In this document: positions 2,279 through 24,126 of the stretch, piece by piece
How the letters are laid out: each line of letters opens with the position of its first letter
Numbering within the stretch: the stretch's first letter is position 1
Virus record (IMG/VR): IMGVR_UViG_3300032093_000798
Location: 1-24,592 of that record
Length of the DNA stretch: 24,592 nucleotides
From: a virus
Direction: 5' to 3' (one strand)
The notes under the pieces: generated by a model
What the model saw: only the letters and a program-made list of their open reading frames with translations
What the model was told of the DNA's origin: nothing
Database searches by the model: none
Position numbers and translations under genes: made by a program

Positions 2279-4569
2279 TACCGGCGACCATCCGGCCTGA
2301 TATCAAGACGCAGGGCACCCATCTGCCACGACACGCCAAGCCCTGAAGAGCCAACCCGTACCGACATCTGACGCGCACGGACACGAGTGAATAACTGCTC
2401 CGTATAGATCTCGTACGGCAGAACCGCCGTCGCGTTGACCTGATTTATATCCGGCGTACTGTAAGCAGAGCCGGGGTAGTTACGCGACAGGACAGATATC
2501 GTCAGGGACGGATTAGTAACCGTTGATCCCAAGAACTTTATGTCCGGTATGATGCGCGAGACAAACCCAAAGTTGTGCCCGTCACCAATGTCAAAGTCTG
2601 ACGACTCAATGAAGCAGTCAATCGGCTCCGCTGTGCCCGTAGACACATCGTCCCAGCCAACCTCGTGATACATAACTTGGTTTGGAGCCGGTAGGGTCAC
2701 AGGCGTGTAGGCCGTATGAGAAGCAGCCGTCGTCCCGTTCGCGCCACGTACACATCCGGTAAGAGTGTTGTTGGTGATACCGGTGTACGTAATTTTCTCT
2801 GAGTCAATAACAATCGTACCTGCGCGTGGGTAGGACGAAGCATCGACAAGCGTGATGGTCGTAATGGAAGCGTTGATATCCGTATCAAGATAAGACGACT
2901 GAACGCTAAATGCCATCTGTGGGTTATCCCGAATTGTCTGAGGCGATAGCGCAGTACGACTTAAATTACCGTACGACCAGACGTTATCAAGGTAGTTATA
3001 GATCACAAACCGGTCATTAACGGTGCTGCCGGTGCCCGGATAGAACCACCAGATTTCGCTGAATGGCTCGTTGTTCCCGCAGACAACTTGAGCAATCTGG
3101 TCCTTGTTCAGCGTGCTGTAGACATGTTGACGAATGGTGCAAGGCAAAGTGTTCACGCGACCGTCATAGACGTAGAACTTGTCCGTTCCCATCCAGTACA
3201 CGGCATTGTTGACGTTGATGACCGAATTCTGCGAAGCCACAGAAATGTCTTGATCAAGGAGCGTGAAGCCAAAGACAAACGGAGGCCCAAGGTACTGCAT
3301 GGAGTACACAGAAGTATCAGTCCAAAGAATAATTTCTTGACGCGCCGTCGTTGCCGCTACGATCTTAGAGCCGTTAGCCAGACGCTGTTCACCAGATTGA
3401 TTCGTAACCTCCGGTACCCACTCGTACGGATTGTCTGCATCCGACCAACGAATCAGCAACGGGTCAAAACTTGTAATGAAATTAGTCGGATCGTATGGGT
3501 TTGCACCAAAGCAGATCGTGAAGTCATCAACCGGCGAGTCAATGATCAGGTTGGTCTTGTTTGGTACGTGCCGACCAGCGTAGCTAAACGAAATGTTTGT
3601 AGCCGTCAGAGAAGACGTAGTAGCCGCCGAGATAGTGACTGACGTGCTGCCGTCCCATGTAGAGAGCACATATGCGCCCGAGACGATGCCACTACCCGTA
3701 ACAATTGCGCCAGTATTGATTCCCGTAGCGTCAGCCACGACCAACGTGACGGAACCTGAAGCAGCGGTGGCAACCGTAGCGAACTTCTCTACGGAGTTAG
3801 CCTTGGCCTCCAGCGTCATGGCGCGAGACCATGTGGTTGGATCAGCAGTCCAGTAATAAAGATCTCCGCCGTTCTCCGCGAAGACCAGATCATCGCCGTA
3901 GTTAAATTGTGACCATAGGCGCAAAGCAAGACCCGCAGGGGTGTTAGACCCCCAGCCGCCAGAACTCCACGGAGGCCCGCCCCAACCGACTGTGCTCGTA
4001 TAAACTGCAGGACCCGCGTCGATATCGTATTGACCGACAACAAGAGAGCCGCCCCCAGTCGCGGATGAGGACGCCGCAGTAGAGCTAAGAATGACAAACG
4101 AATCGGAACTTTCTACCGCGATGACTTCGTACTGCCCGCTGACAGTGATACCGCCTACAGCCGACGCACCGGAGAAGTTAACGTACGTACCGATTGATAC
4201 GCCATGCCCTGTCGAGGTAATGGCAATTTGCTTGCTGCCAGAGGTTGTCCGGATTGGGTTTTGAGTAATGACGCCCGAAAAGGCCAGCGGGGTAATGTCG
4301 TGATACTCGCCGCCCGATTCCACGTAGAACTTCTGATTGGTACCCACGCCAAGCATGGTCAAGCCAGTGCGGAGGGTCCAGTTCCAGAGTGACCGGGCGA
4401 CGCCTTTAAATGTACTACCGATGGACGAAATGTTGGTCCAGCCACCGATCTTTTGGGCGTAGCCACCACGGAACCGCACCTTGTCTACGGTGAAGAAGCC
4501 GCCCTCGCCAGCGTAATTGGTGACTTCTCGATTGACGCCGGGTTTGAAATCGACTCTTTGTAAGGGCAT
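2278..4569 (-). CDS. Tail nozzle-like / packaged-DNA stabilisation structural protein
   Basis: A 763-residue protein. Its N-terminus (PLQRVDFKPGVNREVTNYA, then FRGGYAQKIGGW) is one I recall from podovirus-like phages, where it marks a large tail protein comparable to P22 gp10 or the T7 nozzle. Repeated hydrophobic/aromatic blades (LVFAENGGDLYYW, ILWTDTSVYSMQYLG, VYWMGTDKFYVYDG, EIWWFY) fit a beta-propeller. Three Ser/Thr/Gly-rich insertions interrupt it: ~108-180 (TSTGHGVSIGTYVNFSGA, E1-FCCH-like), ~265-330, and ~560-625 (DASSYPRAGT, KITYTG, LTGCVRGANGTT). The ATG overlaps the endolysin stop (TAATG), with GGAG upstream. It probably caps the tail below the adaptors. The family name is inferred. 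Confidence 0.78.
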   Translation of the reverse strand: MPLQRVDFKPGVNREVTNYAGEGGFFTVDKVRFRGGYAQKIGGWTNISSIGSTFKGVARSLWNWTLRTGLTMLGVGTNQKFYVESGGEYHDITPLAFSGVITQNPIRTTSGSKQIAITSTGHGVSIGTYVNFSGASAVGGITVSGQYEVIAVESSDSFVILSSTAASSSATGGGSLVVGQYDIDAGPAVYTSTVGWGGPPWSSGGWGSNTPAGLALRLWSQFNYGDDLVFAENGGDLYYWTADPTTWSRAMTLEAKANSVEKFATVATAASGSVTLVVADATGINTGAIVTGSGIVSGAYVLSTWDGSTSVTISAATTSSLTATNISFSYAGRHVPNKTNLIIDSPVDDFTICFGANPYDPTNFITSFDPLLIRWSDADNPYEWVPEVTNQSGEQRLANGSKIVAATTARQEIILWTDTSVYSMQYLGPPFVFGFTLLDQDISVASQNSVINVNNAVYWMGTDKFYVYDGRVNTLPCTIRQHVYSTLNKDQIAQVVCGNNEPFSEIWWFYPGTGSTVNDRFVIYNYLDNVWSYGNLSRTALSPQTIRDNPQMAFSVQSSYLDTDINASITTITLVDASSYPRAGTIVIDSEKITYTGITNNTLTGCVRGANGTTAASHTAYTPVTLPAPNQVMYHEVGWDDVSTGTAEPIDCFIESSDFDIGDGHNFGFVSRIIPDIKFLGSTVTNPSLTISVLSRNYPGSAYSTPDINQVNATAVLPYEIYTEQLFTRVRARQMSVRVGSSGLGVSWQMGALRLDIRPDGRR

Positions 4570-9073: not shown

Positions 9074-9529
9074 TTAAGCGATTCGGAGGATCGCCGTCGA
9101 AGCAGCAGCGGCAGGGAATTGGATGGTGAAGTTACCAGCAGTCGAGGTCTTGTCACCGCCGAACGCCAGTACCGCAACAGCCTTATTGCCTTGGGTCGCG
9201 TTGTAGATCAGCGCACCGTTCGCCGTAATCGTGGCGCTCGGGAACGTCAGATCATCAAAGTCGATGAAAGCCGTCGTGCTGCTCGAAGTCGGCACCTGCG
9301 AAATCGTCAGCGTCAAACCACCAGCGGGATAGTTCGTGCCAGACGAAGACACTTCATCCGTGGTGCTATACGCAGTCGTAGCCGCGCTCAGCGTAGCCGA
9401 AGAAGTGAACAGGGCCAGCTTAAACACATCCGCAGCCGTCGAGGCGCGGATAACGCCGGTACCAAAGTTGTGGATTCCGTCAAGGATCTCAACCTTGAAC
9501 GAAGTCGCCATTGCCTGAGTAATAGCCAT
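9074..9529 (-). CDS. Virion structural-like protein, 151 aa
   Basis: 151 residues starting MAITQAMATSFKVEILDGIH. The sequence is rich in Ser, Thr and Ala with alternating hydrophobics (FKLALFTSSATLSAATTAYS, FIDFDDLTFPSATITANGAL), typical of small beta-rich virion proteins. It has AGGAG 6 nt before the ATG and starts just after the 81-residue gene stop. This N-terminal pattern is one I recall from uncharacterised structural proteins of environmental phages, but I cannot name a family. It could be a tail, neck or fibre-base component. Confidence 0.72.
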   Translation of the reverse strand: MAITQAMATSFKVEILDGIHNFGTGVIRASTAADVFKLALFTSSATLSAATTAYSTTDEVSSSGTNYPAGGLTLTISQVPTSSSTTAFIDFDDLTFPSATITANGALIYNATQGNKAVAVLAFGGDKTSTAGNFTIQFPAAAASTAILRIA

Positions 9530-10799: not shown

Positions 10800-11177
10800 C
10801 TAGGTCGTACTGACCGTTACCGTCCCCACCTGCCCTTGGCCTACAAGAGTATTAGGGGTTAATCCTGCGTCGTCGGCTCTTGCCCCGCCTACGGGGTTCC
10901 AGCCCCATTGTATCTCACGGCTACCGTTGGCACCGTCATTACCAATCTCGAAGTAGCTTGTATCCGGCCTTGGATTCCGCAAAGCCTGCGGGTCGTCCAC
11001 GGGATATAAACCAAGTGATAACTGCGGCTGATCCGGCTCCCAGCACTCCGGACAAACCAAGATGTTTACGTTCTTGGTTTTGATCACTATAGACTTCAAC
11101 TGGCGCAGCTTGTACTGAAAGCCACACCGGTCGCACATAGCGATAGCGTGCTTGCCACTTGCAAACCTGTTCGGCAT
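10800..11177 (-). CDS. Zinc-ribbon protein with repeat-like C-terminal tail
   Basis: 125 residues. Cysteines pair as C15xxC18 (CDRCGF) and C42xxC45 (CPECW), a classic zinc ribbon. The start MPNRFASGKHAIAMCDRCGF is a pattern I recall from marine phage genomes. The middle (DPQALRNPRPDTS) is followed by WGWNPVGG and a tail VGQGQVGTVTVSTT that resembles the repeat unit of the 347-residue protein at 8017-9060. The ATG is coupled to the upstream stop (TAATG). The Zn-ribbon may bind a nucleic acid or act structurally in the virion; the role is unknown. Confidence 0.8.
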   Translation of the reverse strand: MPNRFASGKHAIAMCDRCGFQYKLRQLKSIVIKTKNVNILVCPECWEPDQPQLSLGLYPVDDPQALRNPRPDTSYFEIGNDGANGSREIQWGWNPVGGARADDAGLTPNTLVGQGQVGTVTVSTT

Positions 11178-11902
11178 TAGTAGCCACCCAAGAAGCTCTC
11201 ACGTGGGACAAACCGCACCGCCGCCTTTTCGCGGTCTTCCCCAGCCGCCAGATCCCAAGCCTCGTTGTACTCCGCCTTCAGCAGGGTCGTACGCTCCGCC
11301 GCTCCGGGGATCTTCATCGACAGCATGTAAGCCAACCCTGCCACCATGCAGGGGAGGAACCGGTAGGGAACGTCCTGTCCGTTAGAACCCACGCCGGGGT
11401 CCAGCATCCGCCGCAAACGCGTGTAGACCAGCGTCCAAGTCGTGCTGTTATCCGGCTTCGGCCACACGGTGTACTGGGGGTACTGCACCACACCAGCCGC
11501 ATTCGTCGCACCCGTACGGCGATTAATCCAGATCTGAATCGGACGCCCCGTCGCGTTCTTGTTCGGAATGGACAGGTAGGTACTGGACGAAATGCGCGAG
11601 ATGTTGATGTCCTGCTGGTTCGTGCCAGACCCGGTACGGATCACGTGATCGAGCAGGTCAACCGTATCTACCGGCAGATCATACGTACCTTGGTTATAAG
11701 TCAGGATTTGCTGACCTTCTTCCAGCGTCCAGAGATTGATGCCCCGATTCGCCCAGTCCATCAACAAAAGGGCAAGACTGCGCTTGGCGGTCCGAAAGTC
11801 ATATCCCGTCCGCAGTTCAGCACCGCAACGTTCAAAAGCCTCTTCAATAAGCGTATTGAGGTCGAGGTTAAAGTCTGTCGTTGCTGATGTTCTATCAACC
11901 AC
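11177..11902 (-). CDS. Second adaptor-like / connector protein
   Basis: 241 residues. DLNTLIEEAFERCGAELRTG, then LALLLMDWANRGINLWTLEE, TYDLPVDTVDLLDHVIRTG and TWTLVYTRLRRMLDPG follow the order seen in phage tail connector or adaptor proteins (helical entry, beta middle, Y-x-LP-x-D). The C-terminus is helical (LKAEYNEAWDLAAGEDREK). Start is GTG with AAGGGG upstream, 2 nt after the preceding stop. It probably forms a ring between portal and tail, like the 212-residue protein. The family is inferred from pattern. Confidence 0.65.
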   Translation of the reverse strand: MVDRTSATTDFNLDLNTLIEEAFERCGAELRTGYDFRTAKRSLALLLMDWANRGINLWTLEEGQQILTYNQGTYDLPVDTVDLLDHVIRTGSGTNQQDINISRISSSTYLSIPNKNATGRPIQIWINRRTGATNAAGVVQYPQYTVWPKPDNSTTWTLVYTRLRRMLDPGVGSNGQDVPYRFLPCMVAGLAYMLSMKIPGAAERTTLLKAEYNEAWDLAAGEDREKAAVRFVPRESFLGGY

Positions 11903-12404: not shown

Positions 12405-12814
12405 TTGCTTGCCCTAACCACATCATCACCCTTAGTGACGGTCACATGGTCGCCCTCGACATCAACCCTCATCGGCATCTCTTTGCGATCCAGCCGATCC
12501 AACTTGGCGATAAGTTCCTTGATAACCGCGTACTCAGGCTTCTCTTCCTTCTCCACCGTGCCTGCAATGCCATTAAGCATGGAGATCAAAGCAGTCAGAG
12601 ACGCGCCAAGCAAACCCATCACGGCAGCGATCTTGTCGTTATCCAAGAAGAGGCTAGAGACGACGCCAATTACGACGATGGCCGTAATGTACTTTAGACC
12701 GTCCTTGCCGATAGCCTTACCAGCAACAGTCTTAGCAGACGCTTTAGCCTCAAGCCGATTGAGTTCAGCCTGAACTTGCGCCTTAAAAAGTTCGATGTCA
12801 GTCCCGGTATCCAC
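12401..12814 (-). CDS. Two-TM membrane protein, holin-like, 137 aa
   Basis: 137 residues. A helical N-terminus (IELFKAQVQAELNRLEAKAS) is followed by membrane segments YITAIVVIGVVSSLFL and AAVMGLLGASLTALISML (residues ~42-85), then a charged helix and a short beta tail (MRVDVEGDHVTVTKGDD). The GTG start has AAGGAG 7 nt upstream and overlaps the preceding gene by 17 nt. The two-TM topology and coiled ends resemble some holins, but a clear holin lies with the endolysin at 5.1-5.5 kb. This may be a second holin, an antiholin or a membrane-associated virion factor. Confidence 0.7.
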   Translation of the reverse strand: MDTGTDIELFKAQVQAELNRLEAKASAKTVAGKAIGKDGLKYITAIVVIGVVSSLFLDNDKIAAVMGLLGASLTALISMLNGIAGTVEKEEKPEYAVIKELIAKLDRLDRKEMPMRVDVEGDHVTVTKGDDVVRASK

Positions 12815-13097
12815 CGCCCTTCTCCTTGTACCGCTTGGCTAACAACTGCGCCTTACGCGCTGACCACTGGCCTGCTGCCGTACCCTGAACCGCACTATTC
12901 TTAATACTATTAAACAGACTCTTCCGCATACTCGGCTTAGTGTAGTTGCCAGCCGCGTTGACCTTGCTCTTCACCTTGCCGCCTTTTGCGTGGCGGATTG
13001 GCTCCCCAGTGCCCTCAACAGGCTTATTGTCCCCACGACGCTTGGCCCTAGGAACTTTACTGGGGGCAATCACGCCCATGCCGCGACACGCCATCAT
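12798..13097 (-). CDS. Small basic protein with KGGKVKS motif, 99 aa
   Basis: 99 residues. The sequence HAKGGKVKSKVNAAGNYTKP, then MRKSLFNSIKNSAVQGTAAG and QWSARKAQLLAKRYKEKGGG resembles a family I recall from marine phages. The AKGGKVKS motif also occurs, slightly changed, in the neighbouring 260-residue protein. The ATG overlaps the upstream stop by one base (TGATG). Its Lys/Arg-rich composition and helical middle suggest a nucleic-acid or virion-packing role, not proven. Confidence 0.75.
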   Translation of the reverse strand: MMACRGMGVIAPSKVPRAKRRGDNKPVEGTGEPIRHAKGGKVKSKVNAAGNYTKPSMRKSLFNSIKNSAVQGTAAGQWSARKAQLLAKRYKEKGGGYRD

Positions 13098-13879
13098 CAG
13101 ATGTACCGTCCTCGGGTTCTGCCCCGCTTAGCGATACCGTCAGCACGGCTAGAAGCCGAAGATTTGACCTTGCCACCGCGCTTGTAGCCGCCCGCCATGT
13201 CAGAGGACAATTTCTCGTCCAACATGCGCTCAGCCTCTTCACGCTTACGCCTCGGGGATGAAGCACGACGAGCCGCTGCAGACTCGCTCGCACGATAACG
13301 CTCCGAGTACGACGGGATGTCTTTGCGGGCAAGAACCTTGCCCTCCATCTCCGATATCTTGTCACCGGCTCTACGGAACTGCCCAGCCGTACGACCGTAA
13401 GCAGAACCTGCAGCGGAACCGAGCTTGGCTGCACCCGCCGTCATAGCGATGTCTTTAGCGTAGCCCCGCGCTTTGGCTGCACGCTGCTCAGCGTCCATAC
13501 CGGTCTCTTCAGCCTGAGTACGGAAGTTAGTCGCCCGGTCACTCGGAAGCGCCGAACGATTACGCTCCATCGCTGCGGTAGCCCGCTTGGCGATCATCTG
13601 ATCTTCAATACGGCGGTTACTCGCTTCCGTCTCTCCTGCAGACGCCCGGCGACCACCACGAGTGGTTGGGCCTTTCGGAATTGGTGCTGCAGGGGTAGCA
13701 GGCGCTGCGCTAGCGGGAGTTTCTTTGCCCTTGGCTCGCAACTCTTTCAGCAGTTTAAGATTACCTTCCATTGATCGTGGGCGGTTTTTATACGCTTCCG
13801 GATCAAGGCGACGAATTTCCGCGCCGACTTTGCCGTAGCGTTCCTCGTCGGTCATCTCACTCAGCTTTTTGCTAGCCAC
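13097..13879 (-). CDS. Basic Ala/Arg-rich protein with ADGIA tail, 260 aa
   Basis: 260 residues, rich in Ala, Arg, Glu and Lys. A charged start (KKLSEMTDEERYGKVGAEIR) leads to a Pro/Ala linker (~55-70), an Arg-rich middle with helical tendency, an Ala/Gly stretch (DIAMTAGAAKLGSAAGSAYG) and a basic C-terminus RGGKVKSSASSRADGIAKRG followed by RTRGRYI. The last motif recurs in the 79-residue neighbour. The GTG start overlaps that gene by 8 nt, with AAGGG upstream. No family is named; internal virion or DNA-associated roles fit the composition. Confidence 0.75.
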   Translation of the reverse strand: MASKKLSEMTDEERYGKVGAEIRRLDPEAYKNRPRSMEGNLKLLKELRAKGKETPASAAPATPAAPIPKGPTTRGGRRASAGETEASNRRIEDQMIAKRATAAMERNRSALPSDRATNFRTQAEETGMDAEQRAAKARGYAKDIAMTAGAAKLGSAAGSAYGRTAGQFRRAGDKISEMEGKVLARKDIPSYSERYRASESAAARRASSPRRKREEAERMLDEKLSSDMAGGYKRGGKVKSSASSRADGIAKRGRTRGRYI

Positions 13880-14111
13880 AGTAGCCGCCCTTCATCATTT
13901 TGATCATCTTGCCTTTGGTCTTGCCCTTATGAGCAATGCCATCAGCGGCTTTTCGATAAGAACCGCCTGACTTAGCCATACCGCCCTTCGCCTTCTTAAC
14001 AACCTTATCCGGCATATCAAGGCTCATGCCCGGAGCCGCCATCGAACGGCTGTATATGCCACGGGGACTCGTCGGGCCATATGACCCACGCGTTTTTGGA
14101 CCTTTGCTCAT
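13872..14111 (-). CDS. Small basic protein with ADGIA motif, 79 aa
   Basis: 79 residues. Ser/Gly/Arg-rich start (MSKGPKTRGSYGPTSPRGIY), then KKAKGGMAKSGGSYRKAADG and IAHKGKTKGKMIKMMKGG. The KGG and ADGIAxKGKTKG motifs match the C-terminus of the adjacent 260-residue protein. ATGA overlap with the 49-residue gene. No family is recognised. The shared tail implies a common partner or location, perhaps virion binding, which is inference. Confidence 0.72.
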   Translation of the reverse strand: MSKGPKTRGSYGPTSPRGIYSRSMAAPGMSLDMPDKVVKKAKGGMAKSGGSYRKAADGIAHKGKTKGKMIKMMKGGYCG

Positions 14112-14257
14112 TTTGATTTGCTCCTAAATTTGCGGCCTTTGTCGGCCTTCATGAACTCTTTCCCCACTTTTGCGGGGATACCCAATCGCTTAGCCGCCTT
14201 CGGATCATTAGCGACCAAGGCCATCAATCTATGCTGTTTGCCGGACTTACTGGGCAC
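14108..14257 (-). CDS. Small conserved phage protein, 49 aa
   Basis: 49 residues from GTG at 14257, chosen because GGAG lies 7 nt upstream and the resulting start (PSKSGKQHRLMALVANDPKA, then AKRLGIPAKVGKEFMKADKG) matches a short family common in phages (typically MPAKSKKQxxLM...IPxxVxKEF). A longer frame to 14344 only adds residues encoded antiparallel to the coiled-coil gene. It overlaps the upstream gene by 11 nt. Function unknown. Confidence 0.75.
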   Translation of the reverse strand: MPSKSGKQHRLMALVANDPKAAKRLGIPAKVGKEFMKADKGRKFRSKSK

Positions 14258-14492: not shown

Positions 14493-14747
14493 TTAACACT
14501 TCCATGCACGTAAGGACTTGTTGATACGACTGTTGGGATCGTTCGCAGTCTTGGCGCTCGTGAGTTTCTTCTTCATCCCCGACATCCGGGCACAGAAGGA
14601 TTTCTTACGAGGTCCGCCTTCAGGCTGCGGAGCCTTGAGTCCCGGCTTACCGGGGTTCGCCCGGTTATAAGAAGCACGGCCTTTGGCATTTAAACCCCCT
14701 TTGGGATTCTTGCCTTCGGCACGTTGCCAAGCCGGTGACTTAGCCAT
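14493..14747 (-). CDS. DUF6321-like small basic protein
   Basis: 84 residues. The blocks SPAWQRAEGKNPKGGLNAKG, RASYNRANPG, RKKSFCARMSGMKKKLTSAK and NDPNSRINKSLRAWKC match, in order, the pattern I remember for DUF6321, found in many environmental phages and some bacteria. Two Cys (CARM and the C-terminal Cys) and many Lys/Arg suggest nucleic-acid or virion contact. It overlaps the 95-residue gene by 8 nt. Function unknown. Confidence 0.85.
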   Translation of the reverse strand: MAKSPAWQRAEGKNPKGGLNAKGRASYNRANPGKPGLKAPQPEGGPRKKSFCARMSGMKKKLTSAKTANDPNSRINKSLRAWKC

Positions 14748-15445: not shown

Positions 15446-16354
15446 TTAGGACGCGCCCGGCGAGGCAAACATGCCCAGCGGGTCCGACCAGCCGAAGCTA
15501 TAACGCTCGCGGCTCTTGTACCGGACGTTGCCGGTGTCGAAATCGCCGTCCATGCTGTTTTGCAGCGGGGTGCGAACGAAGTGCTTCATGCCGTTCGGAA
15601 CGTCGGTCGTCAAGAACCAAGCGTTCGTGTCAGTCAGGAAGTGGTTGACGGTGTAACCGCCCGGAATCGAACCCATCGCCTTGAGGGCGTTGATGTCGTT
15701 GTCAGCGGTCGCGACACGGAGTTCCGTATCGAGGAGGCGCTTAGCAGTGAACATCAAAGCCGGGGGCACGATGAGCTTGTTGGGCTTCGCCGCGATCAAG
15801 AGACCACGCTCGTCGGTCCAACCAGCGATCTGAATGACAGCCGCTTCCAACGAGGTTTCGTTGAGATCCGAAGCCGTCAAACGGTTGCTGTTGACACCGC
15901 CGGTAACCAGCGGGTGGCTGGCCGAGAACAAAGGCTGACCGTCACCGCCCGTGTAGGACGAAGAGAAGCCGTTGTTAAGGACCGAGGCCGCCTTGACCTG
16001 CTTCGTGTACGCCATAGCGCGAGCAAGAGCCTTCGTATAACGCTTGCTGAGCGAGTCGTACAGGTTGTCTTCAACCGCCTCTTCCGTGATGGAGAAGCCG
16101 AGAGCGATGGTCTCGTGGTTGTAACGAGCCGTCCAAGCTTCCTGCGCGTTGTCATACGCAATGGCGGCACCCTCGGCCTTAACCGGGGCAGCGGAGAATC
16201 CGCTCAGCTTCGTCTCTTCTTCGAAGGAACGCTCGGAGGTCTCCGTCTCGTAGATCTCCTTGTGCTCTTCGCCGTAGGTCTTGTACTCAAGGCCGAACAG
16301 GGCATTCAAGCCCGGCAGGAGCTCTTTAAGTAATTGTGCACGTGAAATAGCCAT
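15446..16354 (-). CDS. Major capsid protein, Mu gpT-like HK97 fold
   Basis: 302 residues. Start MAISRAQLLKELLPGLNALF. Pattern FSASHPLVTGGVNSNRLTAS, then SLEAAVIQIAGWTDERGLLI and NKLIVPPALMFTAKRLLDTE matches the Mu gpT-type capsid signature (HP..., GN, the repeated VPP motif) and the C-terminal ERYSFGWSDPLGMF. This family forms the icosahedral shell. GGGAG lies 9 nt before the ATG. It is followed by a strong terminator and preceded by a probable decoration protein, the expected order for a head module. No frameshift extension is seen. Confidence 0.9.
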   Translation of the reverse strand: MAISRAQLLKELLPGLNALFGLEYKTYGEEHKEIYETETSERSFEEETKLSGFSAAPVKAEGAAIAYDNAQEAWTARYNHETIALGFSITEEAVEDNLYDSLSKRYTKALARAMAYTKQVKAASVLNNGFSSSYTGGDGQPLFSASHPLVTGGVNSNRLTASDLNETSLEAAVIQIAGWTDERGLLIAAKPNKLIVPPALMFTAKRLLDTELRVATADNDINALKAMGSIPGGYTVNHFLTDTNAWFLTTDVPNGMKHFVRTPLQNSMDGDFDTGNVRYKSRERYSFGWSDPLGMFASPGAS

Positions 16355-17048: not shown

Positions 17049-17498
17049 TTATTTGCCCTTGCCGAACGAGACCGTAGTCTTCTTCTCAGTGAAGAGGGGC
17101 ATACGCTCGTCGTTCAGCCTCATAAAGTTGTTGTCCACAGACTGCATCTGAGACTGAGCCTGCTTGGCGTAATAATCATCACGCTGCTTCATCAGTTCAG
17201 CCGGAGCCTTACAGAGCAACAATCCACCGATCTCAATGTTGTCTTTAAAACGTCCATTGGGGTCGGCTTGCATCATCAACTTGGGTTGTTCAGAAGCCTT
17301 AACCGGCTCCCAACCTTCCCGAAACTTTGCAGACGTATTAGAGGGATCTGCTTGACCCATAATACTGGTCCGAATCCAGCGGAATACCCAGCCTTCCTGC
17401 GGCTCCGGTTCAGGGAGCGTTTGGGGCGGGGCCCACGTCATCTTTCGTTGCGTGGACTCTCTGTTCTCGATTTCACGAGCGAGTCTGTTCTCAGCCAT
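17049..17498 (-). CDS. Head-module protein, 149 aa
   Basis: 149 residues. A charged start (ENRLAREIENRESTQRKMTW), then Pro-rich linker, EGWVFRWIRTSIMGQAD and LLLCKAPAELMKQRDDYYAK. GGAGG lies 9 nt before the ATG. Located between the scaffold-like and decoration genes, so it probably acts in head assembly. I recall homologous proteins upstream of capsid genes in environmental phages, but the function is not known. Confidence 0.7.
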   Translation of the reverse strand: MAENRLAREIENRESTQRKMTWAPPQTLPEPEPQEGWVFRWIRTSIMGQADPSNTSAKFREGWEPVKASEQPKLMMQADPNGRFKDNIEIGGLLLCKAPAELMKQRDDYYAKQAQSQMQSVDNNFMRLNDERMPLFTEKKTTVSFGKGK

Positions 17499-17499
17499 T

Positions 17500-18471
17500 T
17501 TAGTTAGCCTCCAGTTTCATAAGTTCACGTGCGTACTGTTCGTTGCTCAGACCCAGTCTTTTGGCGATAGCAACTTGAGTCGGTGTCAGGCGGACCTGAC
17601 GCGGCGCGGTTCCCCGCGTTACCGGAGCCACTACATTGGCTGGTTTTGTGCGAGCGGGCTTTTGTGCCTGCTTCGTTTGAATCGGCTCATCCTCTTCGGC
17701 GTCGTCAAACGCTTCCGGGAATCGCTTCTTCATAGTCTCATCGACTCGGCGGTAATACTCGTCAGAACGAGGATCTACACCAGACCGGACTAGTTTTTCG
17801 TGCAGGCCGAGTGCGAGGGCAGTCATCTCCTCGTCTACGCCAAACCAAGTATTTTTGTCCCTCCACGCAACGGCTTTTGGGTCCGCTTGCGGTTCAGGCG
17901 CAGCTTGGGGCGTCGGTACCTGTGGAACCTGTTCTACTCTTTCCTCTGCTTTTTGTAAAGCAGGTGCGAAATGTTCTATACGTTGGAGGCGCAGCTTGAT
18001 GTCGGTCATCGCCTCCTGAGCATTAGCAATCTGTTCGGAATCCCCAGACTCGTAAGCCTGTTTCAACCGTTCCTTAACAACGCCTAGTTCGACGTTAGCA
18101 GTCTTGATAGCGTGCTCTCTGACAGCTTTCTTATCGACTTCGGACCGTTCTTTAAGTTGTTTAAGCTCATGCTCTCGGAGTTGTACAAACCGAAGAGCCT
18201 CTTCACGCTCTCGGATAGCCCGCTCCTTTTCTCGGCGCTCGTCGTGCCAGACCTTTTTCATCTGGGAGAGGCGCTTCTTAACCTTCTCGGAGTACTCCTC
18301 AAGGTCATCGTTGTCGAGTTCCTCTACAACCTCCTTGGGCATAGGGACTCGGCCCCGGTCTTCTGGCGGGGTATCGTCTTCGATTTCGACTTGAATATCG
18401 TCGCTATCGTCTTGTTTTTGCTCAGCTTTTTCTTCAATCTCGTCGGGGAACTTATATTCTTCATTAGCCAT
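17500..18471 (-). CDS. Scaffold-like protein
   Basis: 323 residues with a strongly acidic N-terminus (residues ~1-60), a long charged coiled coil (~65-170: EALRFVQLREHELKQLKERS), a Pro/Gln linker, a second acidic segment and a basic C-terminal part ending LGLSNEQYARELMKLEAN. Acidic-coil-basic architecture and the LGLSxEQYAxELMKL end are typical of capsid scaffolding proteins, which guide shell assembly and then leave. GAGGT lies before the ATG. Position between GroES and capsid supports the call. Confidence 0.82.
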   Translation of the reverse strand: MANEEYKFPDEIEEKAEQKQDDSDDIQVEIEDDTPPEDRGRVPMPKEVVEELDNDDLEEYSEKVKKRLSQMKKVWHDERREKERAIREREEALRFVQLREHELKQLKERSEVDKKAVREHAIKTANVELGVVKERLKQAYESGDSEQIANAQEAMTDIKLRLQRIEHFAPALQKAEERVEQVPQVPTPQAAPEPQADPKAVAWRDKNTWFGVDEEMTALALGLHEKLVRSGVDPRSDEYYRRVDETMKKRFPEAFDDAEEDEPIQTKQAQKPARTKPANVVAPVTRGTAPRQVRLTPTQVAIAKRLGLSNEQYARELMKLEAN

Positions 18472-19050: not shown

Positions 19051-21618
19051 TTACTCCTTTGGTTGGCCTTCTTTCCTCGATCTGGGACTGCTAGCCATTG
19101 GATTGATCCGGCGTTGTTCCTGTTGGTCCTTCGCCTTGGCAATCTCGACGCCCAACCGGGTCCCTTCAAGTTGCTGATAGTTCGACTCTTCCGCCTTGTG
19201 CTGCTGAATCTCCGCACCGAGACGGGCGGCTTCAAGCTGCTGACGGCCAGAGATTTCTGCTTCTCTGAGTCGATTGATGTCTTCTTTTGAAGCCGCATCG
19301 AGCAGGATCTGCTGCTCTCTGAGTCGAAGCTCTTCCTGCTTGGCCTGAGCTTCCATCTGCGCCTGCATCCGCTTGGTTTCGGCTTGCATTTGTTTGATCT
19401 GCAAGTCCATCTGCTGCATCTGCACGAGCGGGTCCTGCATCTGCTGCATCGCCTGCTGCATCTGCACTTCGGCCTGATCCTTCTGCAGGAGTCTCGCTGC
19501 TGCCGCAGCACTGATCTGAGATAGTTGAACCTCGATCTCTGGCGGCAGGTCGTACTCCTCGTTCTCGTCTTGCGGAAGCGCCGGGAGGCTGGCACCCAAC
19601 TGCTTCTCGATCTCGCGGCGGTATTGGAACGCCACGTGCTCCATGATGTGCGCCTGCAGAGTTGATGTGATCTGCTGCGCCATCGGATTCTGTCCAATCA
19701 TCTGCGCCATCTTCGGGTCTTGTCCCAAAGCCATGTGCACTGCGATGTGGGCTTCGTGATCCTGATACATAAACGCCTTGAGCGGTTTGCCCGTGATGGC
19801 ATCCATGTTCTCTGTCACCGGATCGCGAGGCTTCTGATCCTCCGGCATCGGAATGATCTTATCGACGTTCTTCACGCCCAAAGTCTCGATCATCTGGCGA
19901 TGTAGATACGGAAGATCGTAAAGCTGCGGCGCGGTCTGACTTAGCTGCAACACAGCTTGGTACTGCACCACCTTCTGCGACATGGTGGACGCGTTCGGAT
20001 CTGAGACCGGAATGACATCGACGTTGTCGTAGTCCGACTTCTTCGCGCTGGCCTTACCAACCTCCGGCTCGTAGCTGTACTCCTCTGGCGTATTGTCTCG
20101 GATGATTGTGGCGAGGAGCTTGAACTCCTGTTTCATCGCGTAGTACACGCGAGCCTGCACCGCCGTCATCACCTTCAACACGCGCTCAAGTACAGCGAGT
20201 GTCGTGCCCACCGGAGACTGCGAGGACATATCGGAGATCTTCAGATCCGACACCGCAGCGAAGCGGCGGCCTTCCTCGACCACCTTGTCCATCAACATCG
20301 CCAAAGTCTGCGATGGCTCCTTATACGGAAGCGGAAGGATGTTGTCCTTGATCGCGCCCGAAGGTACGTCTACGTCTCGGAACTCTCCCGGTGCAATCGG
20401 AGTATCGTCTCCCTTAATACGTAGTCCTCGGGACTTAAGTCCTCCGGGGAGATTTGAGAGAGTTCCTGCATCGATAAGTTGTCGAAGGAGGGACGTTGCA
20501 GCCTTACTATGTCCCCCGATGAGGTGTATAAGGCCGAAATAGTAAAATCCAAATCCGGGAATGTATCCGTAGTGGACGAAGTGTTGTCGCTTTTCTTTGA
20601 GTTCATCGTCTTCTCTCCAGTTTCGTCGAATCGCCAGAATCGTTCCTGTTCCCTTCTCAATCGTCACCACGTACGGTAGTGCGATCCCTGTCTCGTTGTT
20701 GTCGTCGTCCACATCCGGATAGCCCGCCAAGTCCAAATTGACGTGCATCTCCAGCAACTGGAACCGGTCGTCCATCGAAGCACTAAAGCCTTGATCCTCG
20801 GCCTTCTGCTTCTCGACCTCGTCCATGACACGCATCGGCTCACCGAGATCCACGTCCCGATAGAACCCAGCGTATTGAAGTTTGTGTAGTTCATTCTTCG
20901 TCTTACGCATCCGGTGCGTAACACGCTCCGCCGTTTCTAAGTTCGCAGCACCGTAGGGCACCACGATATCTTCGGCGGGGATGTAGATCGAAGTCTGACG
21001 ACCCAGTGACGGATCGTAGTACACCTTCTTAAACGCGTTACCGGCAAGAGACATGCTGAGCAACATGCGCTCGTGCTCCGGGCGGTACTCCTTCATCACC
21101 TCGGTCAACTGATAGTTCATGTCGTCACCGACACGAATCGCAGAATCTTTCTTCTCCGGGGTTTCTTTGCCGACAATCTTGGTCTTCACCGGACCCATCG
21201 CCGGGAACGTCTCCATGATCGTCTCAGACTGGAACTTGACCGCACTCTCCATCAGGAGCGGGTGGAACACGCCACACGCACCCGGCCACGGCTCCGTCCG
21301 ATCCTCGTAGCGAATACCCAGAATCTTCAAACCTTTGACGTAGGTATCCAGCCAGTCTTTGCGGCTCGCGAGGTCCTGCTCGTAGTTGCCGATCAGTTCA
21401 GAGGCCATGCTCTGTAGCTCGTTCTCGCTCATGTAGTCGGCGAGGTTGGCATCAAAGTCCTCAGCGCGAGGCTCTGCCTTCTCCAACTCGATCATCATCC
21501 CATCGATGCCGATGCGAACCTCTTCAGGGTCCACGATCTCAATCTCAATCGGCTCCATCTCCGCAGCCATAGCCGCGATGCCTTGGGGAGCCTCCATCAA
21601 ACTTTTATCGACGGCCAT
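19051..21618 (-). CDS. Portal protein, P22-like
   Basis: 855 residues. The block LASRKDWLDTYVKGLKILGI, then EPWPGACGVFHPLLMESAVK and ETIMETFPAMGPVKTKIVGK is the characteristic start of large portal proteins of podovirus-like phages; DMSSQSPVGTTLAVLERVLK and the RQLIDAGTLSNLPGGLKSRG region also fit. Residues ~690-840 form a Gln/Met-rich coiled coil, comparable to the C-terminal barrel of P22 portal. The dodecameric portal sits at one capsid vertex and passes DNA. AGGAG precedes the ATG, 9 nt after the large terminase stop. Confidence 0.93.
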   Translation of the reverse strand: MAVDKSLMEAPQGIAAMAAEMEPIEIEIVDPEEVRIGIDGMMIELEKAEPRAEDFDANLADYMSENELQSMASELIGNYEQDLASRKDWLDTYVKGLKILGIRYEDRTEPWPGACGVFHPLLMESAVKFQSETIMETFPAMGPVKTKIVGKETPEKKDSAIRVGDDMNYQLTEVMKEYRPEHERMLLSMSLAGNAFKKVYYDPSLGRQTSIYIPAEDIVVPYGAANLETAERVTHRMRKTKNELHKLQYAGFYRDVDLGEPMRVMDEVEKQKAEDQGFSASMDDRFQLLEMHVNLDLAGYPDVDDDNNETGIALPYVVTIEKGTGTILAIRRNWREDDELKEKRQHFVHYGYIPGFGFYYFGLIHLIGGHSKAATSLLRQLIDAGTLSNLPGGLKSRGLRIKGDDTPIAPGEFRDVDVPSGAIKDNILPLPYKEPSQTLAMLMDKVVEEGRRFAAVSDLKISDMSSQSPVGTTLAVLERVLKVMTAVQARVYYAMKQEFKLLATIIRDNTPEEYSYEPEVGKASAKKSDYDNVDVIPVSDPNASTMSQKVVQYQAVLQLSQTAPQLYDLPYLHRQMIETLGVKNVDKIIPMPEDQKPRDPVTENMDAITGKPLKAFMYQDHEAHIAVHMALGQDPKMAQMIGQNPMAQQITSTLQAHIMEHVAFQYRREIEKQLGASLPALPQDENEEYDLPPEIEVQLSQISAAAAARLLQKDQAEVQMQQAMQQMQDPLVQMQQMDLQIKQMQAETKRMQAQMEAQAKQEELRLREQQILLDAASKEDINRLREAEISGRQQLEAARLGAEIQQHKAEESNYQQLEGTRLGVEIAKAKDQQEQRRINPMASSPRSRKEGQPKE

Positions 21619-21627
21619 TTAAATCTC

Positions 21628-23136
21628 CTAATAGAACCCAGCGCCTCGGTGGCTCTTGAACCATTTCGTTGGCTCCGGCTCATCCGATGGCAACCTAATA
21701 AAGCCCCCCTGCCGAAAGCGCAGTAAGGCGAGCGTGGTCGCGTCCACCAAGTCGTCATTCGACCCGGAGGGGAAATCATTACATTCCTCCACGACCTCCC
21801 ATGCCCAACGTCTGTCGGGCACCCAGACTATACCCGCCGAAAAGAGGTCCGTCACCGCGTTAACTCGGCTGATCTTGTCTTGGCCCTTACCCGGTGTGAA
21901 CTCCGATATCGGCACACCCATGCGCCGCATCTCCTGATACAGCGCCGCACCGTTAGATTTCTTCTCCACGATGAAACTATCGGGCTGCCACTCCTTGTAC
22001 TCCTCCAGCACGAGGGCCTTAAGCTCTGGGAACTCCAAGCGTTCTTTGACCGCATTGAGCAGAATTATGTTGTAGTTCTGCGTGCTCTCGTTCTTAAACA
22101 CGCCCCACGTGAGCAAGGCGTTGTAGTCCGCACGGGTGTTCTTTTCTTGGGCGGCGTCCAAGGACATGATGATGAACTCACAGGACGGCGGGGACTCTGC
22201 CTCCCACGTCTGCCACCACTCCCGTTTGATGAGCGCACCCTCTTCGGAGGTCGGCTCCTGCATGTACTGGGCTTGCCAATACCGCACGTCCATACTGGCC
22301 TTTTTAGCCAGCAACTCATCGATCCCCCAGAACTCAGGCCACAGCGGCTTATCGTTCAGAATCGCGGGAAATTCCACCACTTCCCACTCATCCGCATCCT
22401 CGTTCTTGGTCATGTGGTCGATGATCTTGCCCGTCAGATCCATTTTGGACCAACGAGTCATCACCACGATGATCGCACCACCCGGCATCAATCGTTGTAC
22501 GGGACCTGACTGGAACCACTCCCAAGCCGGTTCAAAGACATCCGCACGTCCTTGCTTAGCTTCCTGCTCAGAGTGAGGGTCATCAATAATAAAAAGGTCG
22601 GCACCGCGACCAGCAAGAGCACCGCCGACACCAATAGCGAAGTACTCACCGTTAAAATTAGTGCCCCAACGAGAAGCACTCTTTGAATCAGCCTGAAGCT
22701 CGACGGTAGGGAAAATATCACGGTACAGGTCACTCCCGACCAAGTTACGCACACGCCTACCGAAGTTCACCGCCAGATCGGCAGTGTGGGAGGCCATAAT
22801 CACTTTCTTCTGCGGGTATTTGCCCAGAAACCAAGCAGGGGCAAGGTAAGAAATCATTTCAGACTTACCATGTCGCGGCGCAATGTTAACAATTACGCGC
22901 TTTTTTACCCCATCGGCTATGTCTTCAAAAATCTTGGCGAGCCGTTTGTGGTGAGGGCCGACCTTATAGCCGGGATATACGTGATGTATAAAGTCGAGGA
23001 AGGAATCCTTGCCCAACTTCTGCGTAATCTGGCTTTGATACTGCTTCAGGAGGGTCGCCACCCGCCGTTTCTCTTTGTCCGGCAGGTTTGGCAGCGCCAA
23101 CTTCAGCTTTTGCAGGTTTTCAGCGGTGAGTTGCAC
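21628..23136 (-). CDS. terL: Terminase large subunit
   Basis: 502 residues from GTG at 23136, 5 nt after the Cys-rich gene stop; a TTG start at 23202 would overlap that gene by 61 nt and is less likely. Walker A is APRHGKSE (residues ~86-93, K91), Walker B LFIIDDP (~181-187), motif III VVMTRW (~224-229). Nuclease residues: D327 in IIMSLDAA, Glu in IVEKKSNG and Asp in NDDLVDATTLAL. It powers DNA translocation into the prohead and cuts the concatemer. Length is usual for the family. Confidence 0.97.
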   Translation of the reverse strand: MQLTAENLQKLKLALPNLPDKEKRRVATLLKQYQSQITQKLGKDSFLDFIHHVYPGYKVGPHHKRLAKIFEDIADGVKKRVIVNIAPRHGKSEMISYLAPAWFLGKYPQKKVIMASHTADLAVNFGRRVRNLVGSDLYRDIFPTVELQADSKSASRWGTNFNGEYFAIGVGGALAGRGADLFIIDDPHSEQEAKQGRADVFEPAWEWFQSGPVQRLMPGGAIIVVMTRWSKMDLTGKIIDHMTKNEDADEWEVVEFPAILNDKPLWPEFWGIDELLAKKASMDVRYWQAQYMQEPTSEEGALIKREWWQTWEAESPPSCEFIIMSLDAAQEKNTRADYNALLTWGVFKNESTQNYNIILLNAVKERLEFPELKALVLEEYKEWQPDSFIVEKKSNGAALYQEMRRMGVPISEFTPGKGQDKISRVNAVTDLFSAGIVWVPDRRWAWEVVEECNDFPSGSNDDLVDATTLALLRFRQGGFIRLPSDEPEPTKWFKSHRGAGFY

Positions 23137-23141
23137 TAGAT

Positions 23142-23336
23142 TTAGTCTTCGACCAGCGATTTGATGCCAAATTCTTCTTTGCCCCACAGCCCAATCGGGC
23201 AAGACGTGTCAGCAAGCCGGGTTTTCCCCTGAATAATGCATCCACACTGCTTGCAGATGCCCAATTTGTTGTGTTCGCACGGGTCGCAGTACGAAAGGCG
23301 GTCCTGCACGGTCTCTTTAGCGGCCAACTTAACCAC
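23142..23336 (-). CDS. Small Cys-rich (zinc-binding) protein between terminase genes
   Basis: 64 residues from GTG at 23336, with AAGGAGGT 5 nt upstream, one of the strongest ribosome sites in the window; it lies inside the last codons of the small terminase gene, overlapping by 8 nt. Cysteines at 17, 20, 28, 31, 33 and 46 (CDPCEHN, CKQCGC, CPIGLW) form a zinc-binding knot seen in small proteins of many tailed phages. The function is unknown. Placement suggests a role with packaging. Confidence 0.85.
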   Translation of the reverse strand: MVKLAAKETVQDRLSYCDPCEHNKLGICKQCGCIIQGKTRLADTSCPIGLWGKEEFGIKSLVED

Positions 23337-23883: not shown

Positions 23884-24098
23884 GGGGTTTGGCCCAAGTT
23901 GTTGGATATATAGCACAGAAAAGGGCATGGAACCAAATTTAAAGCGGGGTGGGTTTTTATACAGAGGGGGTGGGGGTAGGTTGGCTGGGTTTTGAAAAGT
24001 GTGGTGTCGTTTGTGTAAATCCAAGGGGTGTGGGGGAGCGGGGGGGCCCCAAAAATTTCCGGGGGGTGGCGGGGGAGTGGGGTCGCGCTGACAAGATT
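23884..24098. other. G-rich divergent intergenic region, quadruplex-prone
   Basis: No gene is supported here. The plus strand carries many G-runs: 23966-23989 (GGGGG, GGGGG, GG, GG, GGG) and 24025-24082 (runs of 4, 5, 7, 6, 5 and 4 G with short loops), enough for one or more G-quadruplexes. A homopolymer patch C4-A5-T3-C2-G6 lies at 24047-24066. On the minus strand TATAAA (23961-23956) and TATATA (23912-23907) could be -10 boxes for the leftward block, but no good -35 is seen. It separates divergent transcription units and may hold control or packaging sites. Confidence 0.6.
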
Positions 24099-24126
24099 TT
24101 GCAACGTAAGTTACGATTCGTATAAT
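24099..24126 (+). promoter_or_regulatory. Sigma70-type promoter for rightward genes
   Basis: TTGCAA at 24099-24104 (4 of 6 to TTGACA), a 16-nt spacer and a perfect TATAAT at 24121-24126. The transcript would start near 24133, giving a leader of about 40 nt before the ATG at 24172. It is the best promoter match I found in the window and faces away from the structural genes. Confidence 0.75.

Follow-up and report, generated by a model that had tools for sequence, protein, structure and literature searches.

The window analysed here is the whole of an IMG/VR virus record, a 24,592-base fragment carrying tailed-phage structural genes on the minus strand (Table 1). The portal gene is followed by a GroES-like gene (g157), the acidic g323, g149, g219 and then the capsid gene; a series of small genes occupies the interval between capsid and g241, and the tail genes lie beyond g241. 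Homologues of g241 carry the annotations "adaptor protein" or "tail adaptor". The capsid protein falls into phage capsid families with the HK97 fold. Named relatives are Synechococcus phage MinM2, Planktothrix phages Pag-Yong1 and Pra-JY27, Phage DSL-LC04, Pelagibacter phages HTVC023P/HTVC027P and Roseobacter phages CRP-901/902. Upstream in ORF g325 (23900-24120) there is an odd low-complexity, proline-rich stretch that is probably non-coding, the real start lying further inside. At the other end, the edge protein (1-1632) combines a hydrophobic Gly/Ala-rich stretch, a polyproline run and CQDLGYPPGYDxNxxGEC repeats and is possibly a large internal virion protein.

Table 1. Genes and sequence features of the window discussed in the text.
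Feature	Position	Strand	Description
Terminase	21628-23202	-	structural gene
Portal	19051-21618	-	structural gene
g323	17500..18471	-	acidic composition; probable scaffolding protein; phrog_28737
g149	17049..17498	-	head-region protein; phrog_36003
Major capsid protein	15446..16354	-	Phage_capsid_4 / Mu-like gpT; upstream border of tag interval
g84	14493..14747	-	DUF6321 (Pfam PF19846, E 1.6e-20); untagged here
g78	14108..14257	-	49-residue helical domain; probable GTG start at 14257; untagged here
g79	13872..14111	-	ORF; short body (MSKGPKTRGSYGPTSPRG...), long-tailed tag class
g79 tag	13875..13991	-	AKGGMAKSGGSYRKAADGIAHKGKTKGKMIKMMKGGYCG; tag profile
g79 tag core	13911-13946	-	ADGIAHKGKTKG; exact pattern match 13912-13943
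g260	13097..13879	-	ORF; conserved N-terminal module (residues ~3-52), hypervariable middle, C-terminal tag
g260 tag	13100..13180	-	RGGKVKSSASSRADGIAKRGRTRGRYI; C-terminal, runs up to stop codon
g260 tag core	13109-13144	-	ADGIAKRGRTRG; exact pattern match 13110-13141
g99	12798..13097	-	phrog_17747 family (E 2e-27)
g241	11177..11902	-	portal-adaptor / head-tail connector; downstream border of tag interval

Two of the small genes, g260 and g79, encode proteins with a common module of about 27 residues, KKGGxVxSASxR-ADG[IC]Ax[RK]G-K-T-[RK]G-[KR]-[M/F/I/Y]-[V/C/I], here called the tag. The original prediction had seen short basic motifs in five proteins, g260, g79, g99, g61 and the edge protein, and the peptides it quoted are present at their places on the minus strand. 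A six-frame search of the window with a profile of 96 tags from other phages, g260 relatives excluded, gave exactly two significant places, residues 233-260 of g260 (E 5e-12) and residues 42-70 of g79 (E 1.7e-10), whereas g99 (E 1.9), g61 (E 4.5) and the edge protein (E 27) scored as noise; the motif thus stands for two of the five. In g99, AKGGKVKS is the variable Gly-Gly stretch ahead of the protein's own conserved domain (homologues read EGGKVKS or KKGGES), and none of 115 g99 homologues carries the ADGIA module. The GGKTNS of g61, which had been taken for a weaker version of the tag, is a conserved piece of the g61 family itself; a true tag is found at the N terminus of three g61 relatives. 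The recurring unit is therefore the ADGIA module together with the KGG-SAS stretch ahead of it, and not KGGKVKS by itself. In a 17-member alignment of the g260 family the N-terminal block and the C-terminal tag are kept while the middle varies. AlphaFold confidence for the g260 tag is low (pLDDT about 46-50), and residues 243-252 are modelled as a short helix, which is how a peptide that becomes folded upon binding a partner would be expected to look. The N-terminal module of g260 (13720-13875) also recurs within predicted proteins of about 1,000-1,235 residues in other viral contigs.

The distribution of the tag was examined by scanning IMG/VR with a degenerate DNA pattern for ADGIAx[..]G[..]T[..]G. 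At least 120 stretches matched, as did at least 120 with the ADGCA variant, while a reversed control pattern of similar stringency matched none, excluding chance as the source of the ADGIA module. In 120 of the loci, 145 complete tagged ORFs were found. Exactly three residues follow the core in 100 of these, with the consensus KKGGKVGSASKRADGIAQRGKTRGKMC at the stop; the usual ends are basic-hydrophobic (KMC, RMV, KFV). A second class extends about 10-15 residues past the core and often finishes in GGxC or GKAC. Among 266 profile-selected C-terminal tags the core is near-invariant (D in 263, G in 265, A in 254, G in 265, K in 247, T in 265 and G in 257), and K and R interchange freely at the other basic positions. 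The codons of the core residues have an entropy near background and are nearly as diverse as those of the bodies; with residues this constant and codons this free, selection must act on the peptide, and a DNA-level element such as a recombination site or an RNA signal can be dismissed. Codon bias is confined to the last Gly (GGA/GGG) and the last Arg/Lys (AGG/CGG, AAG), which fits a ribosome-binding site: judging from these codons, the end of the tag (e.g. 13097-13108) appears to double as that of the next gene. The core also matches the Walker A pattern GxxxxGK[ST] literally in 205 of 218 tags (g260 has R for K); none of the tagged proteins with such a core was recognised as an ATPase.

The 347 distinct tagged proteins found were sorted into 107 body clusters, of which 80 have a single member. 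The figure of 107 is an estimate, since it shifts with the BLAST cut-offs used on low-complexity bodies and more than one family may be hidden in the largest cluster. When one member per cluster was aligned, only the starting Met and the tag were conserved. Tags can be present or absent on homologous bodies: with some contigs included twice in these counts, 29 of 34 homologues of the g260 body are tagged (85%), as are all 14 complete homologues of the g79 body (partly in the long-tailed, partly in the three-residue class), 48 of 123 homologues of g78, the most frequent body (39%), and 9 of 150 complete homologues of g84 (6%), whereas no tag was seen in 1,361 homologues from fourteen further families, which included capsid and adaptor. 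The tag is thus a portable short linear module borne, usually at the C terminus, by many unrelated bodies. The central claim of the original prediction, a common tag on unrelated proteins, is in this way strongly supported for g260 and g79, and well past these two, by the body clusters and by gain and loss on homologous bodies, and further by conservation at the protein level and restriction to one genome interval.

Turnover is much quicker among tagged bodies than among the untagged genes around them: 45 of 68 tagged bodies had no homologue in the other 33 loci of a capsid-selected sample, as against 32 of 249 untagged small genes from the same interval (p 4e-16). They are small and poor in order-promoting residues (0.22, versus about 0.30-0.36 in neighbouring structural proteins), and 81% of the body clusters are net positive. 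A Gly/Ala-rich hydrophobic segment is present in 17 of the 107 clusters, compared with 7.2 +- 2.3 in shuffles. Outside DUF6321, no well-supported Pfam domain was found on the bodies of the 107 tagged representatives, and the Pfam scan recognised no known enzyme or anti-restriction protein among them.

The sample just mentioned consisted of loci picked by their capsid gene, independently of the tag, 34 of which span capsid to adaptor. Thirty-two of the 34 contain at least one tag, and up to four occur per locus; 70 of the 73 tags fall inside the capsid-adaptor interval. Of 18 long records, 13 contained strict matches, and these were all clustered within about 2 kb. Other structural genes of the same lineage accompany the tag in 183 of 185 tagged loci, and the tag is confined to this one lineage of phages with Mu-gpT-like capsids. 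Random distribution of the motif, which would have spoken against a shared function, is to that extent contradicted, since the motif keeps to a single phage lineage and a single interval. A scan of 84,980 cellular genomes (257 Gb) gave seven pattern matches. Only two contigs, from Chitinophagales and gammaproteobacterial MAGs, carry true tags, three in all, and both belong to the same phage lineage; the other five matches are not tags. The isolates bearing a tag are MinM2, Pag-Yong1 and Pra-JY27, the tagged protein being WEV89192.1 in MinM2 and UMO75986.1 in Pag-Yong1, and MinM2 and its two near-identical relatives have one variant tag, GGMIGRDGCAKRGRTKGRFI; tblastn against isolates with the bare tag was a weak search, the query being too short. 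No canonical tag was present in the region read of HTVC023P, HTVC027P, CRP-901, DSL-LC04 and 023Pt_psg01, nor in that of Alcaligenes and Caulobacter phages and two spring-water phages, so this virion type can dispense with the tag.

Tags of the same genome share a dialect at two positions. Agreement at positions 18 and 19 (ADGIA-x-[RK]) exceeded expectation (z 7.9 and 4.5) and persisted when G+C was matched (z 6.2 and 4.0), ruling out G+C content as the cause. The effect was replicated in new contigs (p 0.0085 for position 18, 0.013 for position 19). At the equivalent K/R positions 23 and 25 the replicate contigs showed no dialect, and the agreement first seen at the last two residues was lost there (z 0.7 and 1.5); at position 11 agreement was weak at first and clear in the replicate. 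Codon identity between tags is 0.47 within and 0.40 between loci, so that copying of tags within a genome could contribute in part to the shared dialect. Recent copying is unlikely to be the sole cause, however, as the dialect at positions 18 and 19 was replicated and was seen as well in tag pairs with codon identity up to 0.5. Residues common to tags on unrelated bodies form the pattern that a common partner would produce, and the dialect suggests that one such partner reads the tags of a given phage. The common partner of the original prediction thus receives indirect support from the dialect.

The partner was sought through the relatedness of individual genes. Relatedness followed tag position 19 best for g149 (z 5.6), g323 (z 4.4) and the capsid (z 4.0), these being three of about 95 tests with linkage uncontrolled and the capsid value having risen from 0.2 to 4.0 upon thinning. 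For g125 and g212, relatedness showed little association with position 19. The correlations are no more than suggestive of g149, g323 and the capsid as candidate tag partners.

What might such a partner do with the tagged proteins? In T4, the capsid targeting sequence is N-terminal and is cut off by the prohead protease. The T4 internal proteins are described as highly diverse, with conservation limited to the capsid targeting sequence (PMC3012670). The present system resembles T4 in that one short terminal peptide is borne by diverse small phage proteins with hypervariable bodies. It differs in that the tag mostly sits at the C terminus, with N-terminal copies confined to a few g61 relatives, in the sequence of the tag, in the unrelated phage lineage and in that packaging is here a prediction; moreover, the scans of window proteins brought up no recognisable gene for a prohead protease. 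Encapsulin cargo-loading peptides are likewise short, sit on dedicated cargo and are read by an HK97-fold shell protein (PMC8346489, PMC10960027). The tag, too, has a Gly-rich stretch ahead of it, and the capsid next to the tag genes comes from phage capsid families. However, the cargo that encapsulin peptides load consists of cellular enzymes and the compartment holds no genome, while the tag is found on phage proteins; in place of enzymes encoded beside a genome-free shell, there is here a phage capsid gene that forms part of a terminase-portal-capsid operon. The ejection proteins of P22/T7-type phages are comparable as small head-operon accessory proteins, some tagged bodies having Gly/Ala-rich hydrophobic segments. 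Nevertheless, PHROG and Pfam scans of the 107 tagged representatives gave no match to ejection-protein families, and ejection-protein sets are not known to share a C-terminal tag.

The combination of hypervariable small proteins, a constant peptide and a location in the head operon recalls T4 and for this reason favours loading into the procapsid; targeting to the capsid interior, as put forward in the original prediction, fits both the position among head genes and the T4 precedent. One member of the head-assembly pathway (capsid, scaffold or a neighbour) would read the tag and bring accessory proteins into the procapsid, a varying set whose members are small, largely disordered and for the most part basic; these would then travel in the virion and could be delivered along with the DNA. 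We give this reading about an even chance of being correct. The single partner, its membership of the head, the loading into virions and the delivery to the host are what we infer, as would be any part played by the cargo in anti-defence or DNA entry. As a mechanism it would be a variation on a known theme. The wider proposal, that the tag is a general, mainly C-terminal sorting signal with a two-residue dialect for each phage, by which an open-ended, fast-evolving arsenal is loaded into particles, is put forward more tentatively, as something short of an even bet.

Several other roles for the tag can be envisaged. It might anchor the accessory proteins elsewhere on the particle, as minor exterior decoration or on the portal-adaptor-tail machinery: the stretch that holds the tag genes, from capsid to adaptor, is also home to cement and adaptor genes, and any virion partner would fit the within-genome dialect. 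The fact that position 19 tracks g149, g323 and the capsid most, and g125 and g212 little, makes this unlikely, as do the disorder-prone, hypervariable bodies, which do not resemble cement or tail proteins of the usual kind. If the tag bound nucleic acid, condensing DNA or coating it before ejection without any protein partner, this would account for the basic character of the tag and of most bodies and for the phosphate-binding pattern of the core. Unspecific DNA binding, however, needs neither the strict D, G, A and T nor a dialect at positions 18 and 19, and the tag is found in one lineage only, though any phage DNA would serve; this role is quite improbable. Plain DNA binding had been the second option of the original prediction, and it fits less well with near-invariant D, G, A, G, K, T and G and with the swapping of K and R at the other basic positions.

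ClpX recognises short C-terminal signals, among them the basic-hydrophobic end of MuA. It is conceivable, but very doubtful, that the tag with its exposed hydrophobic C terminus is a degradation or remodelling signal by which a host unfoldase such as ClpX clears used assembly helpers. A core that usually stops exactly three residues short of the stop codon, with a basic-hydrophobic end after it, is what such a signal would look like. It would need a free C terminus, however, and a sizeable class has 10-15 further residues, while three g61 relatives have the tag at the N terminus; in addition, the strict conservation sits in the internal DG[IC]AxxGKTxG core and the dialect is phage-specific. 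Still less probable is that the tags are relics of gene duplication, derived from one ancestor whose body diverged fast while its end was conserved, with no present-day common partner. This would explain why tagged genes adjoin in one interval and why the middle of g260 is hypervariable even among close relatives. It does not explain tags on bodies with independent relatives (DUF6321, the phiKZ165.1-type domain of g78, g61 with its N-terminal tag), and near-invariant residues together with a dialect at low codon identity require present-day selection.

The tag appears to be undescribed as a sequence family. The bare tag matched no PHROG family, Pfam and PHROG scans of the 107 tagged proteins named only body domains, no solved structure matched the tag, and a text search of the open PMC literature for the letters of its core returned nothing relevant. 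Regardless of function, about a hundred unrelated protein types at one operon position carry one short peptide that seems to have escaped description. If procapsid loading is correct and the tag serves to load virions, small proteins that now lack annotation, hundreds of them in a widespread uncultured lineage, would become recognisable, from sequence alone, as virion cargo, and the proteins brought into the cell with phage DNA would become readable for that lineage. The tag would then be an independent, C-terminal answer to the problem that T4 met with an N-terminal targeting sequence.

Two bodies that are untagged in this genome deserve mention. The g84 protein scores 73.9 bits against DUF6321, above the curated Pfam cut-off of 28.5. 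In some GenBank phage records, including MinM2 (9188-9433) and Pelagibacter phage Greip, DUF6321 proteins are labelled "RecA-like recombination protein", a label for which no support was seen. The family consensus of the g78 domain is 79% identical over 43 residues to PHIKZ165.1 of phiKZ (4001-4177 of the phiKZ stretch examined), and the domain is also N-terminal in a structural protein of phage 121Q and in a head-operon protein of Shewanella phage vB_Sb_QDWS. It constitutes a second portable module.
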